Source of the DNA: Spartinivicinus ruber
Lineage (GTDB): Bacteria; Pseudomonadota; Gammaproteobacteria; Pseudomonadales; Zooshikellaceae
NCBI RefSeq assembly: GCF_011009015.1
Contig: NZ_CP048878.1
Coordinates: 1,167,501 to 1,231,500 of the forward strand
Direction: 5' to 3'
Length of the DNA stretch: 64,000 nucleotides
Under the pieces are notes generated by a model, which saw only the letters and a list, made by a program, of their open reading frames with translations, did not search any database and was not told the origin of the DNA. A program made the position numbers and the translations under genes. This document shows, in pieces, positions 2,142 through 63,179 of this stretch (position 1 is its first letter; each line of letters begins with the position of its first letter).

Positions 2142-2382
2142 TATTTTCTCTTAATTGGTGTTAGTGTAGGTAAATTTATAAGGGGGAATTCATAATAAAT
2201 CAAATGTATTCAACAATAGTTAACAAAATATTCAAGCATTTTCAAATGCTATCTAACCGACAGCAGCGCAAAGCTGAACTGAAACAAGTCATTCACCAAA
2301 AGTAGTTAGACAAGATTCAACAAGCTAATATCAGCTTTGTAGAGCTTGACTCATAAAGTATAAAACTTATTAGTTAGTATTT

Positions 2383-8319: not shown

Positions 8320-10363
8320 TTAGTTAATCAACTCTGCTTTAAGGGAAACATTACTATATGTTGACGCAGGTGCTATCATAATATGATAAAACTGGTCAGA
8401 AGTAGGATTTTTAATTTCAATAACATCGGTACTATTATCTTTTGTTGAAGAAAAGTCATTTTCAGTAGCAGAGGGCCAACCATTAACTGCTTCTGATACA
8501 TAAGGTCGGCATTTCCCTCACCATCAGTTAAAGATAACTTGAGAGTTTTAGTCCCAGTAGGTACAAAAACATAATAGTATTTATTATTTTGTTGTGATGA
8601 AATATTTGTTTTTGCGATACAGTTTTCTAATGCTCGAGGATCATCTAGGTAACCATTGTAGATATCATTGATTTTTGTTTCGCTAGAGTTGTTGAGGTCA
8701 CTGCTAAGTGCTTGCATAAGAGCATAGGCATCAACAACCCCGCCTGTTGAAGATAAGTCTGAAAAGTTGACTTTTTCATCATCCGCTCCAGGCTTTACGA
8801 CTTGTAGACGAGGACAGGCTCTTACAGTATTTAGTAGGTATTGCTTGAGCGTTTGAACATCAAGTTCTGGGTATTGTGACAAAGCAAGAGCTGCAACACC
8901 TAAGACAACAGGTGCAGCCATACTGGTACCACCATGCTTTTTATATTCATTGTTGGGGGGCGTAGAGAGAATGTCGTCACCTGGAGCAAATAAATCTACA
9001 CTTTTTTTGCTATAGTTAGAAAAACCGGCAGCGAGCTTATCAGGTTTAATAGCAGATGCACCAACCTCTAGCCAGTTATTTAAACTAACACCTAGTGATA
9101 TGTATTTGCTAGGATAGCTAGGATTCAAGTCTATATTTTCGCTATCATTACCTGCTGCATGAACAAGCAACACACCTTTGCTTTCAGCGTATTGAAAGGC
9201 TTCGATAACAATTTTTTTATGCGGTGAATAACGCTTGCCAAAACTCATATTAATAATACGAGCACCATTATCTACTGCATAACGGATGGCGTTAGCAACA
9301 TCTTTGTCCCGCTCGTCCCCATTAGGAATTGCCCGTATTGCCATTATTTTAACGTTATTAGCAACACCACTTATACCGATATCATTATTTCTGTTCGCTG
9401 TAATTATACCCGTAACATGAGTACCGTGATCTTCATCAGGGCTAGCAGGAAGTACATTATTGTTGCCGTAACCTGTTTCCCTTAAGTTATTAGGGTCGTC
9501 TTTAACAATAGAGGCTCTTGAATCATGGTTTAAATCAAAATATCCTTTTAAGGACTTTACGTATTCATCAAGTGAGCTTAAGCTTCTACTATCTCTAATA
9601 AGTAATTTCTTTCTGCCATTACCTCACTATCAGAGTGAGAAAACTGCTCTATGCTAAATTTAGAGTAATCAGTGAGGCCATAGATAGATATAACTGATTT
9701 TGCATCATTAATATTTTCTTCAGTTTCCAGCCAATAGTTAAAGTCATACTCAGCGATTTCTTGATTGTATCTTTCTTCTACTTTTTGGAAATATCTAAGT
9801 TGCTCTTCAGATAGCGTTGTTCCTTATGCTTTATACCTGGCATACTCTCTAGTGACTGCTTTGGTATCAATTGTAACTTGGCTACCATCTGATCCACCAA
9901 TAAAGTTCCAGCCATGAATATCATCAATATAACCATTGTTATCATCATCAATCCCATTATCTGGGATTTCATCATTATTCACCCACATTTTACCTTGAAG
10001 GTCTTCATGATGAATATCTATACCTGAGTCAATTACTGCAACAATGATAGGTGGATTGCTATTGTTCAGGTGTAAGTTGTTGTATACCTTGTTTATATTT
10101 GAACCTTCTATGCTATCCTGTTCAGGGTTTAAGTTAAACCAATCATTGGTGTTTATTGAATCTTGTAAAAGCGTATTGCGTTTAACTCGTCGTTTTTGTT
10201 TGCTGGGATGTTTGGGTTTACTGATTATTACCCCTTTAGCATTTTTGAGTGGTTTAAATACTACAGTTTTGGGGTCATTTGTTGGTGCTGCAAAACTACT
10301 GGCTGAGACTACTGATAAAAATAATGCGGATAATGGAAATAGCTTTGTTTTATTAAATTGCAT
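8320..10363 (-). pseudogene. Secreted subtilisin-like (S8) serine protease, broken in three places
   Basis: Reassembled across lesions, this is a secreted subtilase of about 680 codons. A signal peptide (SVVSASSFA) leads the N-terminus, the catalytic Asp is in AVIDSGIDIHHEDL (residue 112), His in HGTHVTGI (about 9400), the oxyanion Asn in HAAGNDSEN, and Ser in GGTSMAAPV (about 8925). A C-terminal PPC-like domain ends in KAELIN at 8320. Three lesions break it. There is an in-frame TAA at 9824-9826 after REYARYKA, with the same frame continuing GTTLSEEQLRYFQKVEERY. There is a one-base frameshift near 9603-9615 (exit frame AERNYL, entry frame KLLIRDSRSL). A second frameshift lies near 8500, where restoring one T gives ADLYVSEAVNGWPS. 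All catalytic residues survive, so decay is recent or part of it is sequence error. Confidence 0.88.
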
Positions 10364-43440: not shown

Positions 43441-44163
43441 CTAAGTTGGGTTTTTATAGGAGTCAAAAACAGATTGATATTCGCCATTGGATTTAATTAT
43501 TTCTATTCTACTGTCAAAATAATCCCTTAATTTTCTGTTTTTAAATCCTGCGTGTTGATATATAGGGCCGTCAAATATGCGGTGAATCTTGTATTTTTTA
43601 ATTGTATTAATGCCTTTGAGACTTAGTTTGCTTTTCATCCATAAAAAAATTGCTAGGTCACAAACTAATACGTCAGTTTTTTTTGTCCAAAACATTTTAT
43701 TTTGGTGGTATTGTAGTGGCACCTCAAGCCACCTATGACGGTTCTTTTGAGCAAGCTTTTGATATTCCGTACCTAAGACTTTAGGTGCACCCTTCCAGGA
43801 TACGAGTGATAAACCATCAAGATCACGAATAGTCTTTATATTTAACTTTTTTTCTTCTAAAGTTATTGCAACATCATCAAAGGCTAGGTAGTTACTGGAA
43901 TAGTATAAATTTTTATATTTCAAATGTGTGATAGTTGAAATATCAATTTTAGATTTTCTTAGGGAGTAATCTATTTCTTCATTTTGTAGTGGTATAAATT
44001 TTAGTTTAAATTTTTGTTCATCGAAAACTTTCTTTAGGATATCTATAATAATTCCTTTATCTTGAAAAGAGTAGGGGGGCTTGTTTGTCGGTATCCCTAT
44101 GGATAAAGTGTCTTTTGCAAATGCAGTGAATGATAACAGTAGTAACAATAATCCTGCTTTCAT
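43441..44163 (-). CDS. Periplasmic SBP_bac_3-type solute-binding protein, solitary
   Basis: 240 residues. A signal peptide (LLLLLSFTAFA) precedes LSIGIPTNKPPYSFQDK, GIIIDILKKVFDEQKFKL, TIRDLDGLSLVSWKGAPKV and a C-terminal NGEYQSVFDSY typical of the family. Ligand unknown. It may share a transcript with the gene at 42569. Confidence 0.84.
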   Translation of the reverse strand: MKAGLLLLLLSFTAFAKDTLSIGIPTNKPPYSFQDKGIIIDILKKVFDEQKFKLKFIPLQNEEIDYSLRKSKIDISTITHLKYKNLYYSSNYLAFDDVAITLEEKKLNIKTIRDLDGLSLVSWKGAPKVLGTEYQKLAQKNRHRWLEVPLQYHQNKMFWTKKTDVLVCDLAIFLWMKSKLSLKGINTIKKYKIHRIFDGPIYQHAGFKNRKLRDYFDSRIEIIKSNGEYQSVFDSYKNPT

Positions 44164-45499: not shown

Positions 45500-45750
45500 T
45501 TATACTACGTGCATAAAGGGTTATTTTAATATTCCTCTCAGCGACCAAGTTACCCACAAAATGAATACTTCTGTGGGGCTGATAGCTGCTTCTCCATTTC
45601 CATTGATCAACGACTTAGTCACTAGGTGATAGGATAGTGCTCCGAGCATGATTTGGGCAAATTAGTAGCGGTTGATTCACGACCATTAAAAGCAGTCATA
45701 CCACAGCATTGCCAAAAGGCTTGATTTAGAGCGATTTATGTTGTTAACAT
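45500..45750 (-). pseudogene. Prophage relic A: S49-peptidase start fused to baseplate-V end
   Basis: At the nucleotide level this matches the better preserved fragments of relic B. The part at about 45600-45750 matches the S49-like N-terminus at 60290-60442 (shared TGCTCGGAGCACT, GTTGATCAATGGA). The part at about 45500-45595 matches the baseplate-V C-terminal piece at 58900-58960 (shared ATTCATTTTGTGG, GGAATATTAA). The join lies in ATCAGCCCC, where both partners share ATCAGYCC, suggesting a microhomology deletion. All frames are broken. Confidence 0.6.
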
Positions 45751-46254
45751 TCAATCGCTTGTATTGTTACATGTAAAATGTTTGCAGTTTGAGACCTACA
45801 ATATTTCTTCAGCTTAAAGGCCTAACTGTTCGCGTAGTTCTTTATTCTCTTGTTTCAACTCTTTCACCGCTTCGATTAAAACACCAACAAGCCCTGCATA
45901 GTTAACTTGTTTTAGTGTCATTTCAGCTCCATTTTTATCAGTTACTTTGGAATTAAGTACCAACTCAGGAAATACTTGTTCTACATCTTGGGCAATTACA
46001 CCAATATCTTTTCCTTGGGGAAGGTGTTCGATATTGGTTTCACTAGGTTTTTTCCACTCAAAAGTAACACCTTTTAATTGAGATACTTTTTCTAGTGGAT
46101 TACTTACAGTAGAAGTGTTTTGTTTGAGGTTTTGGTCGCTCCAAGTCCATCCTAAGCAATCCCAGCCACAGCCTTTATCATCATCTTTTTTATCTTCTGC
46201 AAAAACAAAAATTGAACAGATACAAAGTAAAAAAGTACCTAATTATCATCATAC

Positions 46255-47190
46255 CTAAGCTATATTTAGTAGCTTACCTGGTAGTGGAGGTGTTCTCAGT
46301 GCTACAAATGCTAGCCTAGGAATAAATTCTACTAAGCTAAATCTTCGATTAAATCGATACTGAAATTCAGCAAGATAACGTTGTGCATATTTAGCGCGAA
46401 TAGCATGATAAGTACTACGTAAAGCACTTTTTAAGTTTCCAAGGATGGTGTTAACCCAATAAAATTCAGGTTCCTCTACTGATGCACGACCACCACCGCA
46501 TACAATTTTATCATGAAGACAACCTGCTTCTATGACACCATTAAAACAGGCCAGTCCATCGGAGATTACGGTACTGCCCTTGGCCAAATTCTGCCTACTC
46601 CAAGCCGTTATCTCTTCTTTATTAAACCCTTTTAAAATGCTCAGTTTAATTCGTGTCGGTTGACCTTGTTTTGTTGTTTCTACGGCTGCTACAAAAGGTA
46701 TTTTCCCATCTGCTCCCCTACCTCTTTTGCAACCTGTACGCTCACCACCAAGATAGGCATCATCAATTTCAATAAAACCCGACAATTGCTTGGTGCCTTC
46801 TCTTTCTTGCATCACTTTCATGAGCTTATGTTTCATTCTCCAGGCAGCTTGATAGGAAATACCTAAATGGCGATGTAATTCTATGGCTGATATACCTTTT
46901 TTGTCTTGGGAGATCAAATACATCCCTTGGAACCAAGTCTTTAATGGTAATTTGGTTGATTCAAAGATAGTACCTGCAGTTACAGATGTTTGCTGGTGAC
47001 ATTTATAGCACTGCTGAAGCTTTCTAGTAGTGAGTTGACAGCATTTGTCTTATCCACAATTGGGGCACTGAAAACCTTCTGGCCATCGCAATTTGTATAA
47101 GGTATTAAAGCATTGTTCTTCTGTACCATATTGTTTGAGAAACTCGTTTAAACTCAGGCCTTTTTGAAATTGAACTTTGTTGATAGCCAT
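46255..47190 (-). pseudogene. IS1595-family transposase with an in-frame stop
   Basis: The reading frame starts at the ATG at 47190 (AAGG upstream) with MAINKVQFQKGLSLNEFL, then a zinc ribbon (CPNCG ... CYKCH). It is interrupted by TAA at 47050-47052 directly after CPNCG; the same frame continues DKCCQLTTRKLQ and into the ISXO2-like DDE domain. That domain has Asp in EIDDAYLGGERTG, Asp in VISDGLACFNG, and Glu in YLAEFQYRFNRR. A 222-residue product from a downstream Met would lack the DNA-binding ribbon. It would have been about 311 residues. Confidence 0.88.
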
Positions 47191-47220
47191 TATTTATACC
47201 TTCTCAATTAAGTTTCCATG

Positions 47221-47236
47221 CTGTTCAAATATACAG
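47221..47236 (-). promoter_or_regulatory. LexA-type site at the transposase promoter
   Basis: CTGTTCAAATATACAG fits CTGT-N8-ACAG and is extended by GC on both sides. It lies 31 bases upstream of the transposase start; the minus strand contains TATATT inside it as a plausible -10, as in the promoter at 30376-30411. LexA control is inferred. Confidence 0.45.
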
Positions 47237-47293
47237 CAGTTAATGGCTTAGGTATAGTGATAATTAGGAAAAAGTAAGTAGTATTTTTTTCAC

Positions 47294-47850
47294 GATAGTT
47301 CGCCCGTACTTGATTTATGTCATTGTTTTCATCAGATTATGAATCTATACGGCACTGAAAGTATATGTAAATTATGAAACAAACTGTAACGTAATTTTAA
47401 TTTTTAATAGCCTTTTGAGTACCATTAACAGTCTTTAGGTTGAATATTTCTACTTACATAGTTTTGATAGTGTTTGCTTTGCCTATATCTAGCATAATTC
47501 AACATTTCCATAGAGGGATTAACCACAATAATGATGAAATAGTGGCTGGAAGTTTCCAAGTTTTTTGAATTTTTAATGAATATTATCAAGGTGTGGTTAA
47601 TTTAATGTATTAATCATGGTTGGCCACAACCTTATAATAATGACGCTCTTTATATTTTGAAGTAGATCTGCTAATTGGAAATAAAGGTCTTGCACTTGGT
47701 AAGTATACAGGTGGGATTCTTCCATGCAAATGCTATTAAACAGGATTGGTATTAAATGAAAGTGAAAACTTGAACTAGTGAAAATTATTTTTATTTTTAA
47801 GGGTATTATTATATAGATATTTTTTTCTGCTGAGCATATTTTACAGTATG
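47294..47850. other. AT-rich intergenic region, nothing recognised
   Basis: About 560 bases between the S74 gene start and the metalloprotease terminator. Promoter of the S74 gene must lie at its left end. No ORF, RNA or repeat was identified. Confidence 0.4.
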
Positions 47851-47901: not shown

Positions 47902-49551
47902 TTATTTCTTTTTAGCTACTATTAAGTTATCAATGAGTAAAGTATTTCCTGTTGTGCTGGTTAATACTAGCCGAGCTGTAGTTATATGTTGAGGTAGTTT
48001 GATATCATTTTCTAGGATAGTAAAGCTATTACTATCAGTATTTGCTTCTCCAACTTTAAACCATTTTTGTAACGGTTTATCCGTTTCGGGATCGATAGCG
48101 GCTAGTTCGTAATAAAGCCATAAAACAGCAGTGGTTGCTTTCGTTGTTTTAATGTTGGCAGCTACTCGATATGTTTGTTCTTCCTCAACAGCACAGCTTA
48201 GCTCTAACCCAACGGCTGGAAAATACTGGCTATCTGTTACTTTAAGTAAGCTTTTCTCTTCTTCAACTTCAATTTTATTGCCTTGATCGTCAAAGTCAGA
48301 AACTTTCCCTAGTTGTTTTACTATTTCAAGTTTACTCGATTTATTCCAGCCAAATAGTCCTTTAATTTCATTATCTTCAAAGTCACTATAATAACCAGAA
48401 ACAAAATCGTACTGAGCAAAGATGTTTTCTAACTCAACATTATTCTTTACCTCATTTAATTTTTGACTAGGAACTATTTCGACTTGGTCGAAATTTAAAG
48501 CGAGTTCCGACTTTTCTCTTTTACTTGCCGAGCAAAAATTGGCAATTTCAGGTGCAGCTTGATTAAGCGATTTGCTGGCATTTTCTTCTTCAGAACCACA
48601 TTTGAGATTCTGTAACGTGCCATCAAGGTTTGAGCAGTGATTGTCAGGGCTTGAAAAGTAAGGAATGATATCATCTGCATATGACATAATAGTGCCATAT
48701 TCCTGCTCACCGGATTTAGCTGAATATCCCATTGAGTAACGATAAAGCCCACTTTCTTCTGTACTACGTTCTACTGCGGCTGCAACGTACTCTTCTTCTA
48801 AAGGAAAATTATTTTTTTTCAAATAAGCTTGGTAGGCAGGTGTGGCTTCTTGATCTGTAGGCCAATTACCTGTTTTTTTCTGGATTTCATCCTTAAAATC
48901 ATACAAGTCGAGTAGACCGCTGTCGTCAAGAGCCCAAGTATAAGTAGAGTGTTGAAGATCTTTAGTTGTTTTATGATCATGGCGAAGCCCCATTAGATGG
49001 CCCGTCTCATGCAAAAACGTCCACTTTCTTCTACGGTCTAGTTTTTCTGGGGTTTCTGGTTCAAACTCATTAGGTAATACACCCACAACAGCTACTGGGC
49101 TAATGCGATGCTCTATACTAAATTTACCATTTAAAGCCTGTTTGCCAACGTGTTCAGCTTTTCCGTTATAGTTTTCCGTTAGAGCAACAACTATGTCAGC
49201 GCCATAATAACTTCTGAGCTGGTGGGTACGTGATTTGTTATGTACAGCAGTAGGACTGTTTTTTGTAAGTTTTCCTAACCAGGGAGAGTGTGCTTGATAC
49301 ACGAGATTAAGTTCTATATTGACGTTGCTGTTATTGAATACCTGGTTGGAATAATCTATATAGCCTTTGATTTCTTCCTCTATATTAATTGAATTTTTTT
49401 CAAAATAGTCTTTTACCTCTGTGGGGTAAATTACCATAACGTCAACAGTGTATTGGGCTGCAAAAGCAGGTATTGATGTTGAGGTTGCCAAAAAAGCGCT
49501 AACTAAGCCTAAATTAGAAAGTAATGATTTAATTGTTTTATACATACTCAC
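47902..49551 (-). CDS. Secreted zinc metalloprotease (reprolysin/M12-like)
   Basis: 549 residues. A signal peptide (LVSAFLATSTSIPAFA) is followed by a metzincin catalytic domain. The zinc motif is HETGHLMGLRHDH (HExxHxxGxxHD, about residues 178-190) and the Met-turn is GTIMSYADDIIPYFSSPDN with the Met about 100 residues later. A C-terminal region (about 360-549) looks like a beta-sandwich with QTYRVAANIKTTKAT and a final LLIDNLIVAKK, typical of carbohydrate-binding-like modules. It should degrade extracellular proteins or act as a virulence-type factor. Monocistronic. Confidence 0.88.
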   Translation of the reverse strand: MSMYKTIKSLLSNLGLVSAFLATSTSIPAFAAQYTVDVMVIYPTEVKDYFEKNSINIEEEIKGYIDYSNQVFNNSNVNIELNLVYQAHSPWLGKLTKNSPTAVHNKSRTHQLRSYYGADIVVALTENYNGKAEHVGKQALNGKFSIEHRISPVAVVGVLPNEFEPETPEKLDRRRKWTFLHETGHLMGLRHDHKTTKDLQHSTYTWALDDSGLLDLYDFKDEIQKKTGNWPTDQEATPAYQAYLKKNNFPLEEEYVAAAVERSTEESGLYRYSMGYSAKSGEQEYGTIMSYADDIIPYFSSPDNHCSNLDGTLQNLKCGSEEENASKSLNQAAPEIANFCSASKREKSELALNFDQVEIVPSQKLNEVKNNVELENIFAQYDFVSGYYSDFEDNEIKGLFGWNKSSKLEIVKQLGKVSDFDDQGNKIEVEEEKSLLKVTDSQYFPAVGLELSCAVEEEQTYRVAANIKTTKATTAVLWLYYELAAIDPETDKPLQKWFKVGEANTDSNSFTILENDIKLPQHITTARLVLTSTTGNTLLIDNLIVAKKK

Positions 49552-60289: not shown

Positions 60290-60442
60290 TTAAGTGGCTG
60301 ATAGTTGCTTCTCTCCATTGATTAATGACTCAATCACTAGACGATCGGACAGTGCTCCGAGCATTACTTGGGCATAGCTGGGTTCGGTCAATAGTGGTTG
60401 ATTCTCGACCATTGCAAGTAGTCGTGGAAATTGCTTATGCAT
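60290..60442 (-). pseudogene. Prophage relic B: N-terminus of S49-type phage peptidase
   Basis: 50 codons starting at an ATG with GGAG upstream: FPRLLAMVENQPLLTEPSYA then VMLGALSDRL and a premature end after KQLSAT. It resembles the first residues of phage head-maturation S49 peptidases (FP..A..FNTPLL..P). The catalytic region is gone. A degraded copy is in relic A. Confidence 0.55.
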
Positions 60443-61472: not shown

Positions 61473-62240
61473 ATGAAGATTTTTACAATACTAATTTTAC
61501 TTGTCAGCTTTTTTTCGAATGCAAAAGAAGCGGAAAAATTACTAAAGATAACGACTGGTGAGTATCCCCCTTGGTCATCGGTTGCGTTTAAACATGGTGG
61601 ATTTGTTCTCCATGTCATTACTGAAGCATTTAGGCGAAATAACTATGAGGTTGAGTTTGCTTACTACCCATGGGCAAGAAGCTATAAAGAGGGGGCGAAG
61701 GGAAAGTTTCATGCAACAGCCTTTTGGTTTTGTGTTCCCAAGCGACAAATAGATTTTTACTGTAGTGAACCTTTATTCCAAGAAGATTTTGTCTTTTTTC
61801 ACCTTAAGTCAACTGATTTTAAAAAATGGACCTCTTTAGAAGATCTTGAACAGTATAGAATTGATGCTACAAGAGAATATTCATATACACCGGAGTTCTG
61901 GGAAGCAAAAGAAACTGGTAGCTTAAATATAATTGTTAGCAATACCGATGAAATAAATTTTAATATGCTTTTCAAAAAAAGAATTGATTTATTTCTCATG
62001 TCAACTGTTGCAGGATATACATTAATGAACAAAAAATTTAGTAAGTCTATGTCTCAGATGGTTACAAATCACTATTTTCCTCTAGTATCGAATACTACTC
62101 ATTTGCTTTTTCCTCGAAACCGAGAAGACTCTTTTGAGCTTATAAATATTTTTAATAAAGGTATAAAATCATTAAAAGCAGATGGAACCTATGATAAGTT
62201 TTATGATGCTCTTCTAAGAGGCGATTATGAAAAAAAATAG
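61473..62240 (+). CDS. Periplasmic SBP_bac_3-type solute-binding protein, solitary
   Basis: 255 residues. Signal peptide IFTILILLVSFFSNA. Lobe 1: LKITTGEYPPWSSVAFKHGG, LHVITEAFRRNNYEVEF, YYPWARSYKEGAKGKF; lobe 2: YRIDATREYSYTPEFWEA, KKRIDLFLMSTVAGYTL. The last codons overlap the next gene by 14 bases, so the two are translationally coupled. The relic at 39535-39750 is its nearest relative here. Confidence 0.9.
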   Translation: MKIFTILILLVSFFSNAKEAEKLLKITTGEYPPWSSVAFKHGGFVLHVITEAFRRNNYEVEFAYYPWARSYKEGAKGKFHATAFWFCVPKRQIDFYCSEPLFQEDFVFFHLKSTDFKKWTSLEDLEQYRIDATREYSYTPEFWEAKETGSLNIIVSNTDEINFNMLFKKRIDLFLMSTVAGYTLMNKKFSKSMSQMVTNHYFPLVSNTTHLLFPRNREDSFELINIFNKGIKSLKADGTYDKFYDALLRGDYEKK

Positions 62241-63015
62241 TATTAGTATAATTGTGAAAATATATATTTTGTGTTTAAAAATACAATTGATATTTACTTT
62301 CTCAATAGTTATAGCATTTACTGCATTTAAAACCTATGCCCGGGATATAAAGATAGTAGGCACTGACTGGGAGCCTTTCTCTGCCTCTACATTAGAAAGT
62401 GGTGGAGTTTTAACTGAAATAGTGGTAACAGCATTTAAGCGAAAAGGATATAATGCAGAAATTCAGTGGTATCCTTGGAAAAGGTGCTTAGTGTTAACCT
62501 CCAAGGGAGAAAGGGATGTTTTAATGACAGCTTATTACAGTGAACAAAGAGCAAAAAAATATCTTTATAGTGATCCACTATTTCAAATTGATATTGGACT
62601 AGTCGCACTAAAGGAAGCAGGTATATCTTCATATAAGTCACTGAGAGATCTAGAAAAATTCACTATCGGTGTAACAAAAAACTGGGTCAATTCCGCAGAA
62701 TTTGATGCTGCTAACTACCTAAAAAAGGATGTATCACTAACTCATATCACAACGATGCGAAAGCTCTTTGGAAGGCGCATTGATATGATTGTTACATCAA
62801 TACCTGTTTTTCAATATGAAGTAAATCGGATGAAATACCATAGCTTATCAGAAGTGACTATTTTGGATCCAATATTAACTAAAAACAATTTACATATTTT
62901 ATCAGGATTTAAAGTGGCAGATTATAAGAAAATTATTCAAGACTTTAATGAGGGATTGTCTGAAATTAAGCAAGATGGTTCTTATGGGAAAATATTTTCA
63001 AAACATGGTTTCTAA
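62227..63015 (+). CDS. Periplasmic SBP_bac_3-type solute-binding protein, coupled to its neighbour
   Basis: 262 residues. An unusually long N-terminal hydrophobic leader (about 40 residues) ends in FKTYARD. Lobe 1: IKIVGTDWEPFSASTLESGG, LTEIVVTAFKRKGY, WYPWKRCLVLTSKGERDV; lobe 2: FTIGVTKNWVNSAEFDAA, GRRIDMIVTSIPVFQYEV. Same PW-(A/K)R subgroup as 61473 and 41413. Two different binders translated together with no ABC genes suggest a sensory or paired-ligand role. Confidence 0.89.
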   Translation: MKKNSISIIVKIYILCLKIQLIFTFSIVIAFTAFKTYARDIKIVGTDWEPFSASTLESGGVLTEIVVTAFKRKGYNAEIQWYPWKRCLVLTSKGERDVLMTAYYSEQRAKKYLYSDPLFQIDIGLVALKEAGISSYKSLRDLEKFTIGVTKNWVNSAEFDAANYLKKDVSLTHITTMRKLFGRRIDMIVTSIPVFQYEVNRMKYHSLSEVTILDPILTKNNLHILSGFKVADYKKIIQDFNEGLSEIKQDGSYGKIFSKHGF

Positions 63016-63053
63016 ATATACTTTCTGCTTTGTTCTTCAAAATAAAAATGGTG

Positions 63054-63179
63054 TCATTCCTTCTCTAGGCTTACTAACTTATTCAGTTTTTTATTAAGAA
63101 AAACCATCTCCCGCTTATCCTGCCGATGCTTATATTCCCAATTAACCACAACGGTAATCGTGGTCAGAATAATACCGAT
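63054..63179 (-). pseudogene. Relic of a small membrane protein, phage-like
   Basis: An open minus-strand frame of 41 codons with no start reads GIILTTITVVVNWEYKHRQD then REMVFLNKKLNKLVSLEKE and a stop: one membrane helix followed by a basic coiled coil, like phage lysis accessory or holin-type proteins. An in-frame TGA precedes it. Weak identification. Confidence 0.35.

Follow-up and report, generated by a model that had tools for sequence, protein, structure and literature searches.

Small proteins that consist of a predicted signal peptide, a short segment and a Peptidase_S74 domain, here called mini-S74 proteins, are encoded in Spartinivicinus ruber and its relatives by genes that are optional prophage cargo adjoining the endolysin gene. 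The long fibre or spike upstream of the S74 domain is absent from the short members of the family. We consider it about an even chance that these proteins are secreted precursors and that their product is a small disulfide peptide, released once the S74 domain has folded, trimerised and cut it off. The window, a stretch of 64,000 nucleotides from S. ruber, contains an interrupted copy of such a gene and part of a second copy at its right edge.

A mini-S74 gene split by an insertion sequence

On the minus strand of the window, positions 45814-46236 encode the end of a hydrophobic signal sequence, followed by EDKKDDDKGCGWDCLGWTW and then by a domain that begins with SDQNLKQN. The start of the gene was located on the other side of an insertion sequence of 1031 bp, which contained an ISXO2-like transposase domain (PF12762), had 26-nt inverted ends at 46238-46263 and 47243-47268 that were 88% complementary, and was flanked on both sides by copies of AAAAAGTA. 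The features of the 2 copies in the window are as follows.

45814..46140, minus strand: Peptidase_S74 (intramolecular chaperone) domain with the Ser-Lys dyad and the C-terminal helix, including the stop codon
46141..46197, minus strand: 19-residue segment with two Cys, the predicted released peptide
46198..46236, minus strand: remaining part of the signal peptide (TFLLCICSIFVFA), up to a putative cleavage position
46238..47268, minus strand: IS1595/ISXO2-like insertion sequence with 26-nt inverted ends and an 8-bp target duplication
47269..47293, minus strand: start-codon (GTG) end of the mini-S74 gene, split off by the insertion sequence (flank read separately)
47305..47324, minus strand: conserved leader AATGACATAAATCAAGTACG, common to two paralogues of this genome
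63762..64000, minus strand: right-edge mini-S74 paralogue, which continues past the window edge and is complete in the genome

The insertion sequence cuts the gene within the part that codes for the signal peptide, between the S74-side piece and the GTG end. The window piece of 142 amino acids gave a full-length match to PF13884 (residues 33-94 of the piece, 3.8e-17, 62.7 bits compared to a cut-off of 22), which together with the reading frame confirmed the claim of the earlier note that a gene interrupted by an insertion sequence encodes a signal peptide and an S74 domain with only a 19-residue, two-Cys segment in between. The interpretation given there was supported in part, and missed the prophage-cargo nature of the gene, the prophage remnants that surround it and the probable death of this copy. 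The S74-side frame ahead of the domain contained no ATG, GTG, TTG or CTG codon, and one ATC and one ATT. As the S74 side lacks a usual start codon, the split copy is probably silent, and as read from its sequence it is probably dead; it is thus the family, not the window copy, that carries the story.

The copy at the right edge had been taken in the same note as a sign that the family is duplicated in this genome. The second copy is real, and when read in the full genome it was found to be an open frame of 166 amino acids with a TTG start and no long fibre or adhesin upstream of the S74 domain, a feature whose presence had been named beforehand as counting against the reading. The word "duplicated" was nevertheless too low, as the genome (6.69 Mb in 4 contigs) contained 12 matches to PF13884, each of them over the family cut-off. 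Nine of the 12, with the window piece counted in, were short open frames of 132 to 172 amino acids, and the other three were a fibre gene of 516 amino acids, a gene cut by a contig end and a decayed copy.

Conserved features of the mini-S74 family

The alignment comprised 30 short members from five Zooshikellaceae genomes, nine members from Pseudomonas and Enterobacter, and six longer relatives. Left out of the 30 short members were L144 (signal lost), L140 at 10004, L165 (contig end), L152 (long fibre), and the fragments L151 and L159. All 10 proteins scanned with PF13884 scored above its cut-off. The rows of the alignment had been picked by the S-D-x-x-x-K motif itself, and the Ser and Lys dyad was therefore recounted on domain hits to the S74 profile without selection for the motif. 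The dyad was present in 46 of the 46 hits from related and Pseudomonas loci that covered it (6 of 52 hits did not), and in 119 of 119 covering hits among named, viral and fibre-type relatives, in agreement with the earlier expectation that it is kept across homologues. Since the fibre-type relatives keep the dyad equally, its conservation alone is no pointer to peptide release.

Exactly two Cys residues were located between the signal peptide and the Ser in 26 of the 30 short members, counted by eye in the mature part, as a scripted count over the last 34 residues reaches into some signal peptides. Three members contained none and one a single Cys, and these four count against the reading as a disulfide peptide. 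In the Pseudomonas and Enterobacter set, two or four Cys residues were located ahead of the Ser. The S74 part was free of Cys in 26 of the 30 short members, and the segment between the predicted signal peptide and the S74 domain spanned about 9 to 46 residues. Apart from the window piece and L162a, which lack a usable start, all short members (28 of 28) were positive in a home-made signal-peptide heuristic, as were eight of the nine Pseudomonas and Enterobacter members, compared to 71 of 290 control frames that were given a similar start freedom.

Some related proteins differed in layout. A 292-amino-acid frame in Zooshikella ganghwensis (L162) consisted of two mini-S74 genes fused in one open frame, the first unit of which had no usual in-frame start codon ahead of the signal-like stretch. 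Six longer S74 proteins of 223 to 245 amino acids were identified in the genus (L147, L148, L149, L150 and L157), with a predicted signal peptide and a stretch of 107 to 127 residues that contained two Cys and a WYW or WHW motif. A similar-looking exported protein with no S74 domain and no Pfam match adjoined a prophage endolysin gene (L206:11083-11682).

The leader AATGACATAAATCAAGTACG ended 11 nt upstream of the GTG codon of the window copy, and was located 11 to 13 nt before the start of three mini-S74 genes, namely the window copy, the right-edge copy and L170. When the whole genome was searched with up to 3 mismatches, it gave 3 matches, all of them exact and each upstream of a mini-S74 gene, whereas the reversed control gave 1. 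Of the 29 short members tested, 13, as counted by eye, had an 18-nt core of the leader, with up to 4 mismatches, at a distance of 10 to 13 nt from the start. In a local promoter scan, the number found, 11, was not clearly above the 8.2 of shuffles (sd 2.9).

Predicted fold and selective constraint

The AlphaFold model of the mature window protein (mean pLDDT 86, pTM 0.71, with residues 2-9 poorly defined) predicts that the protein has the ICA/S74 fold. The best solved matches in Foldseek were three chains of the ICA domain of MyRF (7dc3, best E 9e-7, TM 0.69), followed by the chaperones 3gw6 (E 1.1e-3) and 3gud (E 0.01), and a sequence search matched 6f45, 8jov, 7dc3 and 3gud. The C-terminal helix, at residues 100-124, could act like the coiled coil of MyRF.

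Selective constraint was estimated with the Nei-Gojobori method by pooling 11 hand-picked pairs, of which two peptide pairs were saturated at synonymous sites. The pooled dN/dS values were 0.67 for the signal peptide, which is inflated because its dS is unusually low, 0.22 for the peptide and 0.17 for the S74 domain. One long relative supplied 125 of the 359 peptide codons, and the values with this pair removed were 0.73, 0.20 and 0.17, respectively. These ratios indicate that the peptide is under purifying selection. The peptide was conserved within pairs and strongly different between paralogue types, several of which aligned poorly.

Since the constraint on the peptide does not exceed that on the S74 domain, the peptide is not necessarily the product. 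The S74 trimer may instead be the working product, in which case the Cys residues of the N-terminal stub would lock the three subunits together and self-cleavage would be incidental or a trimming step. This would fit with the S74 domain being the most constrained region (0.17) and the part common to all members, and with the occurrence of the peptide in several types that cannot be aligned well with each other. We regard it as rather unlikely, given that a mere scaffold would not obviously need the dyad present in all 46 covering hits and that the constraint on the peptide nearly equals that on the S74 domain.

We also considered that the genes are functionless debris of tail-fibre genes, of which only the C-terminal end is left. 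S74 is a domain of fibre ends, and decayed copies exist (L012, L140 at 10004 and L144), but all 28 members that could be tested were positive in the signal-peptide heuristic, the dN/dS values were near 0.2, the leader is common to paralogues and related forms are present in two genera. On account of the signal peptides, the constraint and the paralogue-shared leader, this explanation was rejected as extremely unlikely.

Mini-S74 genes in prophage lysis cassettes

Six cassettes (L203-L207 and L161) contained a mini-S74 gene downstream of the endolysin gene on the same strand. There were two S74 genes after the endolysin gene in L203, and a gene for a 79-amino-acid protein was located in between in L207. 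Five of the cassettes continued with a pair of same-strand holin genes, and L205 with genes for two other small proteins. Profile searches identified the neighbours in L203 as Amidase_2, GTA_holin_3TM, an HP1-type holin, a Bro-N/ANT antirepressor, terminase subunits, a lambda-type portal, an S49 protease and a Q-like antitermination protein; the neighbours in the other cassettes were recognised by resemblance. An S74 gene was located within 1.5 kb of 6 of the 25 intact endolysin genes of this endolysin family in five genomes, where intact refers to nearly full-length genes with no internal stops, and fragments and two distant long frames were excluded. Other lysis cassettes carried different genes or none at the place of the S74 gene, as in L243, where the endolysin gene was followed by a gene for an SBP_bac_3 protein. 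Small proteins of 102 to 106 amino acids were encoded between the endolysin gene and the next lysis gene in two further cassettes (L246:1395-1703 and L245:2096-2416); that in L246 had no Pfam match, and both resemble phage anti-defence proteins.

The location suggests another alternative, namely that the mini-S74 protein is a lysis accessory that serves the outer-membrane step of phage lysis in place of a spanin. The gene is placed downstream of the endolysin gene and, with the exception of L205, upstream of a same-strand pair of holin genes, and a home-made scan, uncalibrated on known spanins, flagged no lipobox (o-spanin-like) frame in any of the six cassettes. In the cassette copies themselves, heuristic scans indicated a cleavable Sec-type signal and no lipobox. 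Yet an S74 gene lies within 1.5 kb of only 6 of the 25 intact endolysin genes in the five genomes, copies persist beside decayed amidase or holin genes, and in three Pseudomonas genomes the copy adjoins a cysN-like gene, as judged by eye. A role in lysis is therefore clearly unlikely, and a core lysis protein was not kept as the main reading, given the 6 of 25 endolysin genes.

A role in receptor blocking or superinfection exclusion, by which the exported S74 product or the peptide would mask a surface receptor for phages, would be in line with the late-region location as prophage cargo, the predicted export and the tail-fibre type of the domain. In the fibres that have been studied, S74 is the chaperone that is cleaved away and not the receptor-binding part, and we find this explanation very unlikely.

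Persistence beside decayed phage genes

Six open S74 genes adjoined decayed remnants of amidase or holin genes, two of them in the window genome, three in G001 and one in G002. One of the three open copies in G001 had a holin remnant only, and the amidase remnant in G002 was weak (25% identity, E 1e-5). The S74 gene was also damaged in two further decayed places, in G001 (C11) and near 4.395 Mb in the window genome. The S74 gene is thus often, but not always, still open where the phage neighbours have decayed. The phage gene remnants near the 2 copies in the window were the following.

45566..45661, minus strand: probable S49-type protease remnant just downstream of the window copy (tblastn, 56% over 32 amino acids, E 4e-4)
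60293..60442, minus strand: S49-type protease remnant (tblastn, 92% over 50 amino acids, E 1e-23)
63039..63152, minus strand: HP1-type holin remnant adjoining the right-edge paralogue (tblastn, 53% over 38 amino acids, E 1e-8)

A decayed amidase gene was located just past the window edge, near the right-edge copy, and a short match to a portal protein (E 0.008) further on. The remnants at the right edge were all on the minus strand and in the same order as in the intact prophages; traces of an antirepressor and a 3TM holin near this copy were not significant (E 0.06 and E 0.3). Beside the window copy, no amidase or holin remnant was found, and the S49 match was the only one. The window copy probably outlasted a prophage that decayed around it, and was itself split by the insertion sequence afterwards; the evidence is thinner than for the right-edge copy.

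The window contained additional remnants and exported proteins. A remnant at 2204-2365 (plus strand) was similar to a 130-amino-acid protein of other lysis cassettes (57% over 54 amino acids, E 3e-12), and another at 8329-8651 (minus strand) was a piece of a reprolysin-type protein (E 7e-17). Three SBP_bac_3 proteins and a reprolysin-like metalloprotease were encoded near the S74 genes (43441-44163, 61473-62240, 62227-63015 and 47902-49551), and genes of these kinds were also located in or beside the prophage lysis cassettes L206, L243 and L240. This suggests that the exported prophage cargo is drawn from a shared pool.

Distribution of short S74 proteins

A profile search of 37 genomes of relatives, including the window genome, identified matches in six. 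Five of these belong to the family of the window genome, itself among them, and the sixth had only long frames (606 and 644 amino acids). Among 369 genomes drawn evenly from the class, 18 contained S74, the window genome included, and the smallest frame elsewhere was 207 amino acids. In 398 genomes of the phylum, S74 was found in 54, and frames of at most 171 amino acids occurred at eight places other than those in the window genome. Seven of these eight were read and had mostly other architectures: L214 combined a signal-like start with a membrane stretch, L215 was different, and L219 and L220 were cut by the contig start. L218 (G799) contained a signal-like start, a Cys pair (YCAAGVYRAGC) and a basic stretch, followed by an S74 domain with SDMMLK, and is possibly an independent case of the same layout. 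In L216:928-1284 and L217:782-1171, a short S74 protein had a start resembling a lasso-peptide leader (YVRPALTVFGSVRNLTGG and YVRPVLLYYGSVRNLTGG, respectively) in place of the signal peptide, with scores below the NCBIfam cut-offs (17.5 versus 19 bits for L216, 14.0 versus 33 for L217). In a draw of 119 genomes from the L216/L217 family, such short S74 frames were found in L216 and L217 only.

A second set was found in 7 of 199 Pseudomonas genomes drawn (the query's own included), in P. pudica and on an Enterobacter ludwigii plasmid. The residues CCPF were located immediately before the Ser in all nine Pseudomonas and Enterobacter members. Among plasmids, 138 records matched the Pseudomonas form, with a coverage of at least 80% in one, the Enterobacter plasmid.

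Among the best 80 of at least 511 relatives in IMG/VR, as read by eye, none had a signal peptide and a short S74 domain, and the shortest frame not cut by the start of the locus was 214 amino acids, although many of the frames were cut in this way and hence not classifiable. A search of viral contigs with a CCPFSD-type DNA pattern gave no match. In INPHARED, 1063 records matched, 164 of which had a place that covered at least 80% of the query. Two records among the matches listed were read; Salmonella phage SSU5 had a long fibre and Marine virus AG-345-L05 was unannotated. Short S74 forms may thus be present in phage records.

Proposed mechanism

We propose that an intact mini-S74 gene would give rise to a precursor exported by the Sec pathway, composed of the signal peptide, a peptide of about 9 to 46 residues, usually with one Cys pair, and an S74 domain that cleaves itself. 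Once exported, this domain would trimerise via its C-terminal helix, the Cys pair would be oxidised, and the Ser/Lys dyad would cut just before the Ser, thereby freeing a small disulfide peptide. The freed peptide would be the product and would most likely be directed, beyond the cell that makes it, at competitors or at superinfecting phages. We infer the trimerisation, the disulfide, the cleavage and the release of the peptide, and its target is our guess.

What was observed is the architecture, the conservation of the dyad, the predicted fold, the constraint on the peptide, the location in prophages and the persistence beside decayed genes. The proposed reading is favoured by the retention of the dyad, the constraint on the peptide, the pattern of Cys residues and the fibre-free, MyRF-like domain. 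The Cys residues could also join subunits rather than close a loop, and no immunity gene was recognised adjoining the mini-S74 genes in an unsystematic look.

More tentatively, and with somewhat less than an even chance, the S74 domain may have been recruited more than once as a handle that cuts itself and thereby releases a small exported peptide, namely Cys-pair peptides of prophages in Zooshikellaceae, peptides that end in CCPF in Pseudomonas and on the Enterobacter plasmid, a Cys-pair peptide in L218 and possibly precursors with a lasso-like leader in L216 and L217. If true, such a handle would be a strategy for peptide maturation with no separate protease.

Comparison with known S74 systems

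S74 domains are known to help a large fibre to fold, after which they are removed by cleavage. In an exported, fibre-free protein that keeps the cutting dyad, the helper becomes a candidate device for peptide release. An optional cargo that is able to outlast the adjoining phage genes suggests a benefit to the bacterium, and the mini-S74 protein is a small, easily expressed system for a direct test of self-cleavage in the absence of a fibre.

The S74 chaperones of phages (endosialidase 3gw6, long tail fibre 6f45 and neck appendage 3gud) share the domain family, the fold, the SDxxxK dyad and the helical C-terminus with the mini-S74 proteins. To our knowledge, the known phage S74 proteins lack a signal peptide and have a fibre or spike ahead of the domain, whereas the mini-S74 proteins have only about 9 to 46 residues after a signal peptide.

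The best fold match to the mini-S74 protein (E 9e-7) was the ICA domain of MyRF (7dc3), a eukaryotic membrane-bound transcription factor, in which an aromatic pair, Y-x-Y, aligns by eye with F-x-W in mini-S74. In the MyRF study, cleavage by the S74/ICA domain is reported to be independent of the upstream fold, the stalk takes no part, Ser587 and Lys592 are essential, and the coiled coil drives the formation of the trimer that is required for cleavage (PMC8326128). MyRF frees a large DNA-binding part from the membrane, whereas mini-S74 would free a short exported peptide.

The MAT fibres of Bdellovibrio, which belong to the S74 group, are similar to the mini-S74 proteins in that they are bacterial, have a signal peptide and form a multi-gene family. 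Self-cleavage of S74 has been demonstrated experimentally for Bd3182, and the MAT proteins form long adhesive fibres that are trimeric and in which the signal peptide is followed by a conserved domain of about 130 amino acids (PMC10769870). This beta-rich domain is absent from the mini-S74 proteins, in which the segment before S74 is too short for it, and the sections consulted of the MAT paper do not mention a fibre-free form (PMC10769870).

The mini-S74 genes resemble prophage cargo ("moron") genes in late operons in being optional extra genes beside the lysis genes and in having, in part of the family, a conserved upstream element. They differ in the kind of cargo, a putative exported S74 peptide precursor. 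In the open-licence literature, we recognised no description of a secreted fibre-less S74 protein or of S74 as prophage cargo. The S74 domain, its chemistry and the signal-peptide S74 fibres of Bdellovibrio (PMC10769870) were already known, and what appears to be new, going by the open-licence literature, is a fibre-free S74 protein with predicted export that is carried as prophage cargo.
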